Shown piece after piece: positions 20,094-28,127 of a stretch of 64,000 nucleotides of DNA. This stretch comes from Gluconobacter potus (GTDB lineage: Bacteria > Pseudomonadota > Alphaproteobacteria > Acetobacterales > Acetobacteraceae), in contig NZ_JABCQF010000002.1 of the NCBI RefSeq assembly GCF_015244705.1, positions 310,001 through 374,000 on the forward strand, read 5' to 3'. The first letter of the stretch is position 1. Every line of letters begins with the position of its first letter. The notes beneath the pieces were generated by a model. That model saw only the letters and a list, made by a program, of their open reading frames with translations. It ran no database searches and was not told where the DNA came from. Position numbers and translations under genes: made by a program.

Positions 20094-20837
20094 TCAGATG
20101 GCCGCGACGGTTGCGGGAACGCTGTTTCTGGAAATAGCATCAGTTGCGGCAGGAATTTCCGCGGTGTCGTCTTCGCGCAGGATGTAGCCGCGTCCCCAGA
20201 CGGTCGCGATCAGGTTTCCCGCGCCGACATTCTGGAGTTTGCGACGCAGCTTGCAGATGAAGACGTCGATGATCTTCATTTCCGGCTCGTCAATGCCGCC
20301 ATAAAGGTGGTTGAGAAACGCGTCCTTGGTCAGGACGGATCCCTTGCGGATCACCAGCAGTTCCAGAATAGCATATTCCTTGCCCGTCAGGTGCAGCGGA
20401 GCGCCGTCAACGGTGACGTTCTTGCCGTTCAGATCCAGTTCCAGATTGCCGACGCGAAGCTTGGGCTCGGCAAAGCCACGGGAGCGCCGCATGACGGCCT
20501 GCAGACGGGCGACCAGTTCGCCGGCGTCGTAAGGCTTGGTCATGTAGTCGTCCGCGCCCATGGAGAAGGCCCGGATTTTTGCCTGGGGCCGCAGCAGGGC
20601 GGACAGGACAAGAATGGGCGTCGTGATACGCGCGGCCCGGGCGCGGCGAATGACTTCGTAGCCTTCAAGATCGTTCAGCATCAGTTCGAGCACCACCACA
20701 TCGTAGTCGTAGTGGCGAAGCATCTCGATGGCCTCTTCGCCAGACGGCGTGTGATCCACGGTGAAAGACGCGGTCCGCAGGATCTGGGACAGTGTGGCGG
20801 CGGCTGACTGATCGCTGTCGACAAGAAGGATACGCAT
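20094..20837 (-). CDS. ctrA: CtrA-family response regulator with Glu in place of the phosphoacceptor Asp
   Basis: This is an OmpR-type regulator of 247 residues that matches Caulobacter CtrA closely in the DNA-binding half: LTGKEYAILELL, the LTKDAFLNHLYGG block and KIIDVFICKLRRKLQ. CtrA controls cell-cycle, division and flagellar genes in alphaproteobacteria. The receiver is odd. Residue 51, which in Caulobacter CtrA is the phosphorylated Asp, is Glu (codon GAA at 20687-20685, in VVVLELML). The acidic pair at the start of the receiver, Glu7-Asp8 in Caulobacter, is Asp7-Ser8 here. The Lys of MTKP and the Ser of VLSALL remain. I start at ATG 20837, where the receiver begins. It is divergent from fliI, consistent with flagellar control. 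Confidence 0.9.
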   Translation of the reverse strand: MRILLVDSDQSAAATLSQILRTASFTVDHTPSGEEAIEMLRHYDYDVVVLELMLNDLEGYEVIRRARAARITTPILVLSALLRPQAKIRAFSMGADDYMTKPYDAGELVARLQAVMRRSRGFAEPKLRVGNLELDLNGKNVTVDGAPLHLTGKEYAILELLVIRKGSVLTKDAFLNHLYGGIDEPEMKIIDVFICKLRRKLQNVGAGNLIATVWGRGYILREDDTAEIPAATDAISRNSVPATVAAI

Positions 20838-20950: not shown

Positions 20951-20965
20951 TTAGCGTTCTCTTAA
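20951..20965. promoter_or_regulatory. Near-consensus CtrA binding site (TTAG-N7-TTAA)
   Basis: TTAG at 20951-20954 and TTAA at 20962-20965 are separated by exactly seven bases, one mismatch from the CtrA consensus TTAA-N7-TTAA. The site lies in the 190-base region between the divergent ctrA and fliI starts, where autoregulation or flagellar regulation would act. Confidence 0.45.
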
Positions 20966-21027: not shown

Positions 21028-22383
21028 ATGGACGACTACGACGCACTGCTTGAAAGGCTTTCGAACCTCACCTGCGACTGGGTTGTAGGAAGCGTTAAAG
21101 ACGTTATCGGTCTCTGCCTGACCGTTATCGGACTCGAAGGTTTCATTACGATTGGGGACCGAGTCGCGGTGAAGGCACGTGACGGAAGAGTTGTGCAATC
21201 CGAGGTTGTGGGCTTTCAGGGCGATGTCGCGCGGCTCATGTCCTTCGGGCCTCTGGACGGAATTGGTCCGGGCTGTGAGGCCAAGATTCCGCTGAACCGT
21301 CATGATGGTGGCCTTGGCGTCAATGAAAGCTGGCTGGGCCGCGTGCTGGATCCGCTGGGACAGCCGATCGACGGGAAGGGGCCTCTGTTTCCGTCGTTTG
21401 AGCGGCAGCCGGTCCAGTGTCCTCCGCCCAATGCCGCAAGCCGGGCGCGGCTTGGCGAGCGTATCGACCTCGGGGTCCGAGCGCTTGATACTTTCACGAC
21501 GTGCCGGCACGGACAAAGGCTGGGGCTTTTCGCGGGGTCGGGTGTCGGGAAATCGACATTGCTGTCCATGCTCGCCCGGGGCGCGGACTGTGATGTCGCC
21601 GTGATCTCGCTTGTGGGTGAGCGTGGACGCGAGGTGCGGGAGTTCATCGAGGATGATCTCGGACCGGAAGGGCTGGCGCGGAGTGTGCTGGTGATTGCGA
21701 CTTCGGATTCCCCCCCGCTGATGCGTCGCGAAGCCGCCCTGTCCGCCATGGCCATCGCGGAATATTTCCGGAACCAGGGCAAATCGGTCCTGCTGCTGAT
21801 GGACAGCGTGACGCGGTTCTGCATGGCGCTGCGTGAAATCGGTCTGTCAGCCGGAGAGCCGCCTGCGACACGGGGATATCCGCCTTCGGTGTTTGCCGAA
21901 CTGCCGCGTCTTCTGGAGCGGGCAGGCCCTGGCTATGCCGATCAGGGGATGATCACGGCGCTTTTCACGGTTCTCGTGGAAGGGGACGACCAGAATGAGC
22001 CGGTTGCGGATGCCGTGCGTGGTATTCTGGACGGGCATATTATCTTGGATCGCAAGATTGGTGAGCAGGGGCGGTATCCTGCCATTGATGTTCTGCGCTC
22101 TCTGTCGCGCGCGGTTCCGGGATGTAATTCACCCGAAGAAAACGCCCTCACGCAGCGTGCGCGTGCCGCGATGGCGACCTATCAGCGGATGGCGGACATG
22201 ATCCGGCTGGGGGCCTACAAGCCCGGAACGGATCGCGAGGTGGACGAGGCCATTGCCCTGATGCCGAAGCTGAATGCATTCCTGTCTCAGGGACGAAATG
22301 AACGCTCCACGCGCGCGGAGGCCTTTGAACAGCTGGCACAGATCATGCAGCCGCCGCAGAACGTCCCCCCGAATAAATCGTAA
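21028..22383 (+). CDS. fliI: Flagellum-specific ATP synthase FliI
   Basis: FliI is the F1-beta-like hexameric ATPase of the flagellar type III export apparatus. In the 451-residue protein Walker A (AGSGVGKST) is at 169-177, followed by the VISLVGERGREVREF block and Walker B (VLLLMDSVTRF); the signature segment RAVPGCNSPEENALT is in the C-terminal part. The N-terminus is short. The gene lies directly opposite ctrA and is followed after 13 bases by fliJ. No other flagellar genes are in the window. Confidence 0.95.
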   Translation: MDDYDALLERLSNLTCDWVVGSVKDVIGLCLTVIGLEGFITIGDRVAVKARDGRVVQSEVVGFQGDVARLMSFGPLDGIGPGCEAKIPLNRHDGGLGVNESWLGRVLDPLGQPIDGKGPLFPSFERQPVQCPPPNAASRARLGERIDLGVRALDTFTTCRHGQRLGLFAGSGVGKSTLLSMLARGADCDVAVISLVGERGREVREFIEDDLGPEGLARSVLVIATSDSPPLMRREAALSAMAIAEYFRNQGKSVLLLMDSVTRFCMALREIGLSAGEPPATRGYPPSVFAELPRLLERAGPGYADQGMITALFTVLVEGDDQNEPVADAVRGILDGHIILDRKIGEQGRYPAIDVLRSLSRAVPGCNSPEENALTQRARAAMATYQRMADMIRLGAYKPGTDREVDEAIALMPKLNAFLSQGRNERSTRAEAFEQLAQIMQPPQNVPPNKS

Positions 22384-22396
22384 AGGAGCTCACATA

Positions 22397-22822
22397 ATGG
22401 AACGCTCACCTCTCGAAACACTGATTACTCTGCGGGAGCAGGAACTGGATCTTGTGGAACGCAGCTTCGCAGAGGCCGTGGCGCGGGAAACGGCTGCGGA
22501 AGAAAAACTGGCTACGGCCCAGGCGGAGATCCTGAGCGAACAGCGGATCGCATCCAGTCCTACGGCGGATGACGGGGCTGTGGAAGCATTCAGCCGGTGG
22601 CTGCCTGCCGGGCGGCAGGCGGTTCTGGAAGCGCGCGAGCGCTGTCGGGAAGCGGCGATGGATCGCGAGGCGGTGCGTTCAGCCCTGATCGCTGCCCGGG
22701 CGGCCATGGAGGCCGTCAGGACATTGCGTGAAGAGCAGAAAGAGGAAGAGCGGCAGGCTGACCTCAGAAAGGAGCAGAACGTCCTCGATGAACTCGCGGT
22801 CCGTCAGTTCGGCAGGTCGTGA
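22397..22822 (+). CDS. fliJ: Probable flagellar export protein FliJ
   Basis: This 141-residue protein is almost entirely predicted coiled coil, rich in Glu, Arg and Ala with heptad-like Leu spacing from the start (ETLITLREQELDLVERSF). FliJ is the gamma-subunit-like stalk that sits in the FliI hexamer and links it to FlhA. Primary sequence is poorly conserved in this family, so the call rests on length, coiled coil and position directly behind fliI. An AGGAG site at 22384-22388 fixes the ATG at 22397. Its last 19 bases overlap a convergent gene. Confidence 0.8.
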   Translation: MERSPLETLITLREQELDLVERSFAEAVARETAAEEKLATAQAEILSEQRIASSPTADDGAVEAFSRWLPAGRQAVLEARERCREAAMDREAVRSALIAARAAMEAVRTLREEQKEEERQADLRKEQNVLDELAVRQFGRS

Positions 22823-26511: not shown

Positions 26512-27579
26512 TCAGGATCGGGGAGAAAGGATGTCCCGCAAAGCGTCTGTCAGGCGTATGCAGGCTTCGTCCGTTCCGATCGAGATGCGCAGCCAGTCCT
26601 GGATGCGCGGGGTTGAGAGATGCCGGACAAGGATCGCCCGCTCGCGCAGGGCGGCGGCGATGGCTCCGGCTTTGTGCGCCGGGTGGTGCACGAGAACGAA
26701 GTTGGCACAGGATGGCAGGACTTGGAAGCCAAGATTTTGCAGATCCGGGACCAGCCTGTCACGGCTGGCGATGACGCGCGCCGTGATATCCGCAAGCCAG
26801 TCGGTATCCTGGATCGCGGCGATGGCCCCGGCCTGTGCCGGACGGGAGAGGGGATAGGAATTGAAGCTGTCCTTGACCCGGATGAGACCTTCGATCAGCT
26901 CCGGGGAGCCGATCGCAAAACCCACACGCAGCCCTGCCAGGGCATAGGACTTGGACAGCGTCTGGACCACCAGAAGATTGTCATACCGGTGTGTCAGTTC
27001 AATGGCGGACTGCGCCCCGAAATCGACATAGGCCTCGTCGATGATGACGGTCCGGTCCGGATGACGCTTCAGGAGCATCTCGATCTGCTCCAGCGGCAGG
27101 GCGATGCCCGTATTCGCATTGGGATTGGCGACGATGATGCCACCGCAGTCGCCGGTATAGGCGTCGATGTCGATCGCAAAATCGTCATTGAGCGGGATGT
27201 GGCGGAACGGCTGTTCGAACAGGCCGCAATAGACCGGATAGAAGCCGTAGGTCACATCCGAGAACAGGACCGGCGCATCATCGTGGAACAGGGCGCGGAA
27301 GGCATGGGCCAGCACTTCGTCCGAGCCATTGCCGACGAAAACGCGGTCTGCCGTTGTGCCGAAGCGGGCGGCAATGGTGTCGCGCAGAACTGCCGCCGTC
27401 GGGTCCGGATACAGGCGCAGGTCATCCGATGCGGCGTCCCGGATGGCTGCCAGCGCCTTCGGGCTCGGGCCGTAGGGAGACTCGTTCGTATTGAGCTTCA
27501 GCAGGTCCGCGACCTTGGGCTGCTCGCCCGGGACGTAAGGGTGCAGGTCACGCACCCGGCGGTTCCAGAAACGGCTCAT
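26512..27579 (-). CDS. hisC: Histidinol-phosphate aminotransferase
   Basis: HisC is a PLP enzyme that makes L-histidinol phosphate from imidazole-acetol phosphate; in this clade such enzymes may also accept aromatic keto acids. The 355-residue protein has the N-terminal KLNTNESPYGPSP, the PLP-ring Asp181 in DEAYVDF, the Schiff-base Lys210 in TLSKSYALAGLRVGF, and an Arg-containing C-terminal LRISIGT. Its ATG overlaps the stop of the upstream ankyrin gene by four bases. It is away from other his genes, so a second aminotransferase role is possible. Confidence 0.9.
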   Translation of the reverse strand: MSRFWNRRVRDLHPYVPGEQPKVADLLKLNTNESPYGPSPKALAAIRDAASDDLRLYPDPTAAVLRDTIAARFGTTADRVFVGNGSDEVLAHAFRALFHDDAPVLFSDVTYGFYPVYCGLFEQPFRHIPLNDDFAIDIDAYTGDCGGIIVANPNANTGIALPLEQIEMLLKRHPDRTVIIDEAYVDFGAQSAIELTHRYDNLLVVQTLSKSYALAGLRVGFAIGSPELIEGLIRVKDSFNSYPLSRPAQAGAIAAIQDTDWLADITARVIASRDRLVPDLQNLGFQVLPSCANFVLVHHPAHKAGAIAAALRERAILVRHLSTPRIQDWLRISIGTDEACIRLTDALRDILSPRS

Positions 27580-28076
27580 GCGGGTATTCCGGTGAACAGG
27601 CTGCTCATGAGCTGGCGTTCGGCAAGGACGCGGGCGGAGACGCCGTCCGCGTCTTTCAGGTCAGGGTTCGCTCCGGCTGCCAGAAGGGTTCTGGCCATCT
27701 CTTCGCGGTTGAACATGATGGAGAACATCAGCGGCGTGCGACCGGCATGATTGGCATGATCCACCTGAGCACCGTGATCGAGCAGAAGCTTTGCGATGTC
27801 GGTCAGGCCCTTGAAGGCGACGCCGGAGAGCGCCGTGGCGCCCTTGAGATCGGTTGCTTCCGTATCGGCGCCGCGGTCCAGCAGCAGGCGCGTGGCGTCG
27901 GCGTGGCCGTTATAGGTGGCGACGATCAGCGCGGTGTATCCGCGGCTGTCGGGCGTATCGATGGCCATGCCGGCGTCCAGAAACTGGGTCAGGAGGTCGG
28001 TATCGCCTTCACGGGCCGCGTCGATGAACAGGGCGGTGATCTGGTCTGACGTGAAAGTGACGTTCTGGGCGTTCAT
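27576..28076 (-). CDS. Ankyrin-repeat protein
   Basis: The 166-residue protein consists mainly of four to five ankyrin repeats. The repeat core appears as DSRGYTALIVATYNGHADATRLLL, DLKGATALSGVAFKGLTDIAKLLL and NHAGRTPLMFSIMFNREEMARTLL, each followed by D/AxGA turns. No signal peptide is present, so it is probably a cytoplasmic protein-binding adaptor. ATG 28076 is chosen; a GTG at 28088 is in frame. It lies between the metallo-hydrolase gene and hisC on the same strand and is translationally coupled to hisC. Its partner is unknown. Confidence 0.88.
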   Translation of the reverse strand: MNAQNVTFTSDQITALFIDAAREGDTDLLTQFLDAGMAIDTPDSRGYTALIVATYNGHADATRLLLDRGADTEATDLKGATALSGVAFKGLTDIAKLLLDHGAQVDHANHAGRTPLMFSIMFNREEMARTLLAAGANPDLKDADGVSARVLAERQLMSSLFTGIPA

Positions 28077-28127
28077 GACGGTTTCCACATGGCGGTGTCC
28101 CCTCGCGGGGTGTTGTCGGAGGAGAGG

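Follow-up and report, generated by a model that had tools for sequence, protein, structure and literature searches.

Sequence comparisons indicate that the acetic acid bacteria appear to have lost the relay that normally activates the regulator CtrA. We consider it probable (roughly 70%) that CtrA persists in this group as a pseudo-receiver protein, fixed after relay loss, in which a glutamate at position 51 confers an active-like state and control is exerted through the amount of protein. This reading is built on the missing relay genes, the wide occurrence of Glu51 within the group, the uneven decay of the receiver, and a box conserved upstream of ctrA in Gluconobacter. Phosphorylation control is treated as the defining feature of CtrA, and in Caulobacter it is essential. 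The present group, which matters to industry, retains CtrA without the relay, and with the very change that laboratories use to bypass it.

The window, a 64,000-nucleotide stretch of Gluconobacter potus DNA, carries ctrA on the minus strand (20094-20837). The 247-residue translation matches Response_reg and Trans_reg_C, with a receiver at about residues 1-118 and a winged-helix DNA-binding domain at about residues 140-222 (a CtrA receiver chain is deposited in the Protein Data Bank as 4qpj). Among NCBIfam families the CtrA model NF045991 ranks first at 326 bits, below its curated cut-off of 350, and the next family reaches 162 bits; a Glu51 relative (L018) clears the cut-off at 352 bits. The nearest named CtrA is that of Gluconobacter oxydans NBRC 14819 (97%). 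The protein matches CtrA ahead of other OmpR/PhoB regulators and is single-copy, as befits an orthologue: one CtrA was seen in the 3.42-Mb genome, and the runner-up protein is 36% identical. The initial annotation had read a Glu and a Ser at two catalytic positions, and both readings are correct. Codon 51 is GAA (20685-20687, minus strand), replacing the phosphoacceptor Asp with Glu, and codon 8 is AGC (20814-20816, minus strand), replacing a Mg2+-binding Asp with Ser. Residues 7-9 are D-S-D, and Ser79 and Lys101 are retained. The receiver is still recognised as PF00072 (82 bits) although the catalytic aspartate and an acid are replaced, which makes it a pseudo-receiver in the usual sense of a receiver by sequence that lacks the catalytic aspartate and/or the acids.

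A second ctrA with Asp51, or a sequencing error at codon 51, had been named at the outset as observations that could overturn this picture. No second Asp51 ctrA was seen in the genome, where the next-best match is the 36% identical protein; seven other matches, of 15, were read as loci, and all seven have Asp51. Sequencing error is excluded because 44 of 145 family genomes and 30 of 80 named loci share Glu51, across many species and with two Glu codons in use (GAA in 49 and GAG in 16 of 65 distinct Glu51 sequences).

Comparison of CtrA across the Acetobacteraceae, which the initial annotation had recommended, shows that Glu51 is a group-wide state rather than a one-strain oddity, and broader than was supposed there. 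The 30 named Glu51 loci comprise all the Acetobacter (10/10) and Gluconobacter (12/12) fetched, two Neokomagataea, one each of Tanticharoenia, Brytella, Novacetimonas and Gluconacetobacter, and two metagenome bins; the remaining 50 named loci have Asp51 and include Acidisphaera, Roseicella, Neoroseomonas and Caldovatus. The family survey examined 299 genomes, 237 of which gave a CtrA match at 1e-60. The 145 genomes read combine 30 loci, 67 of 120 further rows (the other 53, mostly from over-represented genera, were dropped) and 48 re-searched rows; 80 of the 149 family genomes without a listed row were searched again, and 16 of these had no match at 1e-42. Residue 51 was Asp in 92 genomes and Glu in 44, the other nine having Arg (3), Ala (2), His (2), Asn (1) or Ser (1); 44/145 is not a frequency because the set was purposely enriched for small acetic-acid-bacterial genomes. 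Outside the family, 198 of 289 genomes searched gave matches (three of the 198 proved to be family members), and none of the 68 CtrAs read had Glu51; residues 7-9 were EDD in 66 and EDE in 2, with Asp51, Ser79 and Lys101 in all.

Several family members depart from either pattern. One metagenome bin labelled Asaia bogorensis (L105) stands apart from the other named acetic acid bacteria fetched in having Asp51 with its pocket intact, and we suspect a misassigned contig. CtrA-like proteins of G068, G224, G096 and G023 (g68, g96, g24), about 42-44% identical, combine Arg or Ser at position 51 with a residue at 101 that is not basic, and appear to be fully degenerate pseudo-receivers. Genomes of the genera g56 and g71 (G251, G132, G181, G056, G219 and G071) have no clear ChpT and keep Asp51, with Gly or Ser at position 8; judged from sequence, their receivers have decayed by a route different from that of the acetic acid bacteria.

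The relay genes were searched for directly, as had also been proposed. ChpT (PF10090) gave no match in the window's genome at E 0.01, under conditions in which the Caulobacter control genome was detected. With 1e-5 as the threshold for presence, ChpT was found in 69 of the 145 family genomes. In 43 of the 44 Glu51 genomes there was nothing better than 3e-4, a level that we take as probable kinase background; the lone Glu51 genome with a ChpT match is G133 (7e-9). The native site of cckA can be recognised in Asp51 genomes: it follows flhB in G067 and G078, and upstream of recA in these two and in G055 (about 1.1 kb before recA in G067). The best-matching models of the G067 and G078 CckA proteins are NF046020 and NF046026, at scores below their cut-offs. 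We inspected the region upstream of recA in 30 genomes, 20 of them Glu51. An flhB match lies 184-289 bp from recA in eight of these 20, including the window's genome (248 bp), and no cckA was found between the two genes at 1e-5 in any of the eight. In 11 of the 20 neither flhB nor cckA occurs within 1.5 kb upstream of recA, which leaves the junction out of view, and both are likewise absent from this interval in the Asp51 genomes G030, G046, G060 and G041. G071, G056 and G251, three genomes with Asp51 but neither the position-8 acid nor a clear ChpT, also show the flhB-recA junction without cckA.

The kinases that remain appear to be relatives of CckA rather than CckA itself. In a kinase tree the CckA clade does not include the best kinases of four Glu51 genomes, all of which score higher against a G078 paralogue than against G078 CckA. 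Three of them group on the paralogue's side, and that of G295 stands by itself on a long branch at the side of CckA. Another kinase family beats the CckA models for all four, by only 3 bits in G295. For one kinase of the window's genome (L298:5059-7062) the CckA model is marginally ahead, at 283 against 273 bits, with a cut-off of 1000; in the search for CckA that genome yielded related kinases only. The flhB-recA interval of G133 (L269) contains a diverged CckA that lacks its N-terminal part and has an altered H-box; unknown bases fill part of this interval. The relay of G133 may be in the course of degenerating. In nine of 12 chpT loci the gene lies near a CheA match; a clean excision of chpT could not be shown because the che operon of the window's genome is differently arranged. 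SciP (PF06627) was absent from all 24 family genomes searched, with the Caulobacter control detected; its absence is uninformative because it is missing with and without the relay alike. Among the stand-alone receivers read, some were considered as candidates for CpdR or DivK and set aside: two adjoin cheA, and two others were unmatched by NCBIfam at 1e-20.

Taken together, it is well supported that the window's CtrA is very unlikely to operate under the canonical CckA-ChpT relay. The independence from this relay that was first suggested from Glu51 agrees with the undetected ChpT, the disappearance of cckA from its site, and the drift of the Mg2+ acid and the helix-1 surface.

Relay loss and the state of the receiver site go together. 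Scoring a site as intact when it has acidic residues at 7-9, Asp51 and Lys101, we found it intact in 67 of the 69 genomes with ChpT (the exceptions being G133 and G103) and altered in 67 of the 76 without a clear ChpT. The association gives a Fisher p of 2e-28, a value to be read with the shared ancestry of the rows in mind. ChpT status switches at least 11 times on the CtrA tree; an independent-pairs test, underpowered with four pairs on well-supported branches, was not significant. Most of the association traces to a single ancestral loss, with a few others besides. Among the nine intact exceptions without a clear ChpT, six are from genomes no more than 93% complete, and two (G038 and G075) have ChpT matches of about 4e-5 that may be real.

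The order of events was read from CtrA trees built without the trait columns, one with 138 rows (seven divergent rows dropped) and one with 146 (15 family rows dropped and 16 outsiders, not monophyletic, added). The acetic acid bacteria fall with g56/g71 on one side of a branch supported at SH-aLRT 95.6 in the 146-row tree, and the remaining 82 rows hold together at 99 in the 138-row tree; the acetic-acid-bacterial branch itself reaches only 57-72. The flhB-recA junction is common to the acetic acid bacteria and g56/g71. Loss of the acid at position 8 is placed after Glu51 because G295, G009 and nine of ten named Acetobacter keep E-D-D at 7-9 with Glu51. The simplest order would therefore be relay loss in the common ancestor with g56/g71, then Glu51, then loss of acid 8. 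Under this order an acetic-acid-bacterial ancestor would have lost the kinase CckA and the phosphotransferase ChpT, and the change of Asp51 to Glu on the branch of these bacteria would have fixed a mimic of phosphorylation. The gene tree shows two more, apparently independent, changes from Asp51 to Glu, one in G081/G146 (no clear ChpT) and one in G133 (ChpT kept). On the acetic-acid-bacterial side, Asp51 occurs in six of the 49 rows. Among these six, G046, G126, G060 and G184 are nested among Glu51 rows and have a broken acid pocket and Arg101, a pattern that suggests reversion from Glu to Asp.

These exceptions bear on an explanation in which the receiver has plainly decayed, Glu51 being a neutral step with no mimic effect and DNA being bound through the C-terminal domain by concentration alone. 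The nested Asp51 rows fit such decay and weaken the view that Glu is essential; the presence of Ala, His, Asn, Arg or Ser at position 51 in nine of the 145 genomes fits it too, and shows that the gene can persist in the absence of a Glu clamp. Moreover, position 51 has only the 32nd lowest entropy among the 118 receiver columns. Against plain decay stands the unevenness of the change, measured between 44 of the 49 acetic-acid-bacterial rows and 64 of the 68 Asp51/ChpT rows. The five most deviant acetic-acid-bacterial rows left out (G013, G030, G242, G169 and G066) have between them two Asp, two His and one Ala at position 51; G045, G069, G084 and G185 were left out of the other set. From Asp51/ChpT to acetic-acid-bacterial rows, entropy rises from 0.12 to 2.13 bits at position 8, 0.20 to 2.75 at 80, 0.53 to 3.54 at 14 and 0 to 2.84 at 55; the biggest rises include positions 14 and 15 of helix 1, 55, 80 (the residue after Ser79), 31 and 8. 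Position 51, at 0.44 bits, is far steadier than 8 and 80, and positions 79 (0.27), 101 (0.93), 56 and 102 (both zero) are also low. Residue 51 is Glu in 40 and Asp in four of the 44 rows, and residue 101 is Lys in 29 and Arg in 15; position 79 remains Ser/Thr, 98 Tyr/Phe, 56 Asp and 102 Pro. Both Glu codons occur, which also speaks against neutral passage. Residues 51 and 101 depart together: among the 145 genomes a basic residue at 101 accompanies an acidic 51 in 135 of 136 cases and any other residue at 51 in none of nine. Such a pattern would be expected from a retained clamp between Glu51 and Lys/Arg101, and simple drift fits it less well. We regard plain decay as unlikely.

Decay of the receiver looks selective, with position 8, position 80 and helix 1 drifting while an acidic residue 51, Ser/Thr79, Lys/Arg101 and the DNA-binding domain are mostly kept. 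The description of the DNA-binding domain as almost unchanged holds in relative rather than absolute terms, its mean identity between acetic-acid-bacterial and Asp51/ChpT-positive CtrAs being 74% against 51% for the receiver. Helix 1 is the phosphotransferase-docking face. In the mechanism we favour, Glu51 would pair with Lys/Arg101 and Ser/Thr79 and hold the receiver in a DNA-binding-competent, constitutively active form. With phosphotransfer gone, position 8, the small residue that follows Ser79 and the surface of helix 1 would be free to drift, and the clamp and the DNA-binding domain would be kept.

A different possibility is that something else acts on the receiver, such as modification of Ser/Thr or Lys, a bound ligand, a partner protein or another phosphodonor. 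The window's genome retains 27 receiver-domain matches and several hybrid kinases, and pseudo-receivers offer a precedent in Rem, which is inhibited by MirA (PMC12632262). Comparison of 17 loci runs the other way, in that only flagellar and housekeeping genes stood out as shared neighbours among those that could be identified, a part of the total. Glu is not a normal receiver phosphoacceptor, which counts against another donor. Control of this kind seems to us quite improbable.

A terminal Ala-Ala can mark a protein as a ClpXP substrate. The window's CtrA ends in V-A-A-I-stop (20094-20108, minus strand), so that its Ala-Ala is not terminal. Among the named loci, 39 of 50 with Asp51 have a terminal Ala-Ala, as do 13 of 30 with Glu51; the latter include all ten Acetobacter but none of the 12 named Gluconobacter or the two Neokomagataea. 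Where it is kept, proteolysis would also set CtrA activity. Replacement of the last three residues stabilises Caulobacter CtrA (PMC12186491, PMC5189948). The allele ctrA(D51E)-delta3-omega is described as stable and active in Caulobacter, and its expression leads to G1 arrest of stressed cells (PMC5189948). With Glu51 and no terminal Ala-Ala, the window's CtrA resembles this stable, active double mutant. A fuller scenario would have the relay dismantled across the whole group, through a shared deletion of cckA, the change of Asp51 to Glu, erosion of the Mg2+ pocket and at least two more Asp-to-Glu changes, and, with loss of the tail in Gluconobacter, would turn the cell-cycle master regulator of the class into a regulator of motility and surface-life genes that is constitutive and controlled by dose. 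We put this forward tentatively, at somewhat less than even odds for the whole sequence.

The protein is at once familiar and unusual. Like the CtrA of Caulobacter crescentus and other alphaproteobacteria, it is an orthologous OmpR-type regulator with a well-conserved DNA-binding domain, and a TTAA-N7-TTAA-type box lies upstream of Gluconobacter ctrA; unlike them, it has Glu51 and a Ser in place of the Mg2+ acid, with ChpT undetected and CckA gone from its site. The laboratory alleles ctrA(D51E) and ctrA(D51E)-delta3-omega of Caulobacter carry the identical residue change, and the Gluconobacter tail is changed too (a D51E CtrA has also been overexpressed in Rhodobacter capsulatus; PMC6363796), but here the change is natural, spans genera and comes with relay loss and erosion of the acid pocket. 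The receiver signature is shared with pseudo-receivers (ChxR, HP1043, GlnR and Rem, as well as plant PRRs and ascomycete Rim15 with Asp-to-Glu). In atypical receivers Glu stands at the D position and Arg at the K position, the second acid is replaced, and Gly/Ala is less common behind Ser/Thr; the D position is most often taken over by Glu, which can mimic in part, if not always (PMC12632262). CtrA is not named in that review. The present case differs in that a normally relay-controlled CtrA is affected and the stages of loss are visible in living relatives. That relay genes are missing in the order is already known, the absence of chpT and cckA in Rhodospirillales having been reported by Brilli 2010 (PMC2877005) and Tomasch 2021 (PMC8116508), the latter allowing that the genes may just be too diverged to find. 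As far as the main text of the former goes, it is silent on Asp51 and the receiver. Among the papers listed in searches of the open-access literature, which leaves most subscription papers outside, we found none on the Asp51 state of CtrA in acetic acid bacteria.

Living relatives display an intact system, relay loss with Asp51 kept, Glu51 alongside acids that are either still intact or already broken, and full degeneration. These stages make it testable how a regulator outlives the loss of its kinase, and whether an Asp-to-Glu mimic is a usual first step. For two-component predictions in Gluconobacter, Acetobacter and their cellulose-making relatives, phosphorylation of CtrA should not be assumed.

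TTAA-N7-TTAA is the Caulobacter CtrA consensus. In the window a CtrA-box-like site, TTAA-N7-CTAA (20951-20965, minus strand), lies in the divergent intergenic region between ctrA and fliI. An alignment of 13 Gluconobacter sequences, the window's included, shows no variation in its TTAA amid variable flanks, and a TTAA-N7-(C/T)TAA or TGAA site occurs upstream of ctrA in all 12 named Gluconobacter. For binding of TTAA-N7-TTAA by this CtrA, such conservation would count as indirect evidence. Near-boxes upstream of ctrA were found in 15 of 30 Glu51 and three of 50 Asp51 loci; candidate boxes are present in Gluconobacter, Neokomagataea and Brytella, and in none of the ten Acetobacter. We propose that activity is set by the amount of CtrA made, in Gluconobacter perhaps through autoregulation at this box. 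TTAA-N7-TTAA is not enriched genome-wide, with ten sites against 25 for a reversed control pattern. The ten exact boxes lie near two GGDEF genes, dprA, an AIDA adhesin gene, a beta-lactamase-like gene, an integrase gene and others, some just upstream of the GGDEF genes and dprA. An exact box sits at nearly the same place before dprA (-42/-40) in three genomes, and exact or near boxes precede dprA in seven of 20 Glu51 and none of nine Asp51 genomes (G009, whose match has no start, was left out). CtrA would be expected to control flagellar genes and perhaps genes for c-di-GMP and DNA uptake; for other orders, links of CtrA to motility, recombination and c-di-GMP genes have been reported (PMC8116508, PMC9756655).

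The initial annotation had gone further and proposed a rewired cell-cycle circuit; in its full form a constitutive CtrA would gate replication through synthesis and proteolysis alone. This is a version of our preferred reading and does not exclude it. Relay loss and Glu51 accord with it, and a D51E-like CtrA is no argument against a cell-cycle role because Caulobacter tolerates D51E plus stabilised ctrA alleles at the native locus, a strain of this kind being listed in PMC12186491. GANTC occurs upstream of ctrA in 21 of 30 Glu51 loci, but is no commoner than in shuffled sequence (mean 0.90 versus 1.12). The nine gene products scanned next to exact boxes include two GGDEF proteins and DprA but no replication protein. 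Moreover, loss of ctrA reportedly leaves viability unharmed in Rhodospirillum centenum and Magnetospirillum magneticum (PMC8116508). Because ctrA loss is reported as harmless to viability in these two other Rhodospirillales, a motility-type role would be at least as likely as one in the cell cycle, and a rewired cell cycle is, in our estimation, rather unlikely.

Flagellar genes lie beside ctrA. Divergent from it is fliI, encoding the flagellar export ATPase (21028-22383, plus strand; TIGR03498, 646 bits), followed by fliJ for a flagellar export protein (22379-22822, plus strand; TIGR02473, PF02050). FliI adjoins ctrA in seven of eight Asp51 and seven of nine Glu51 loci compared, as it does in the window; it was not seen beside ctrA in Gluconacetobacter (L139) or Novacetimonas (L132). 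Elsewhere in the window, a small ankyrin-repeat protein of 170 amino acids is encoded at 27576-28088 (minus strand), its end overlapping a minus-strand open reading frame at 26512-27579.
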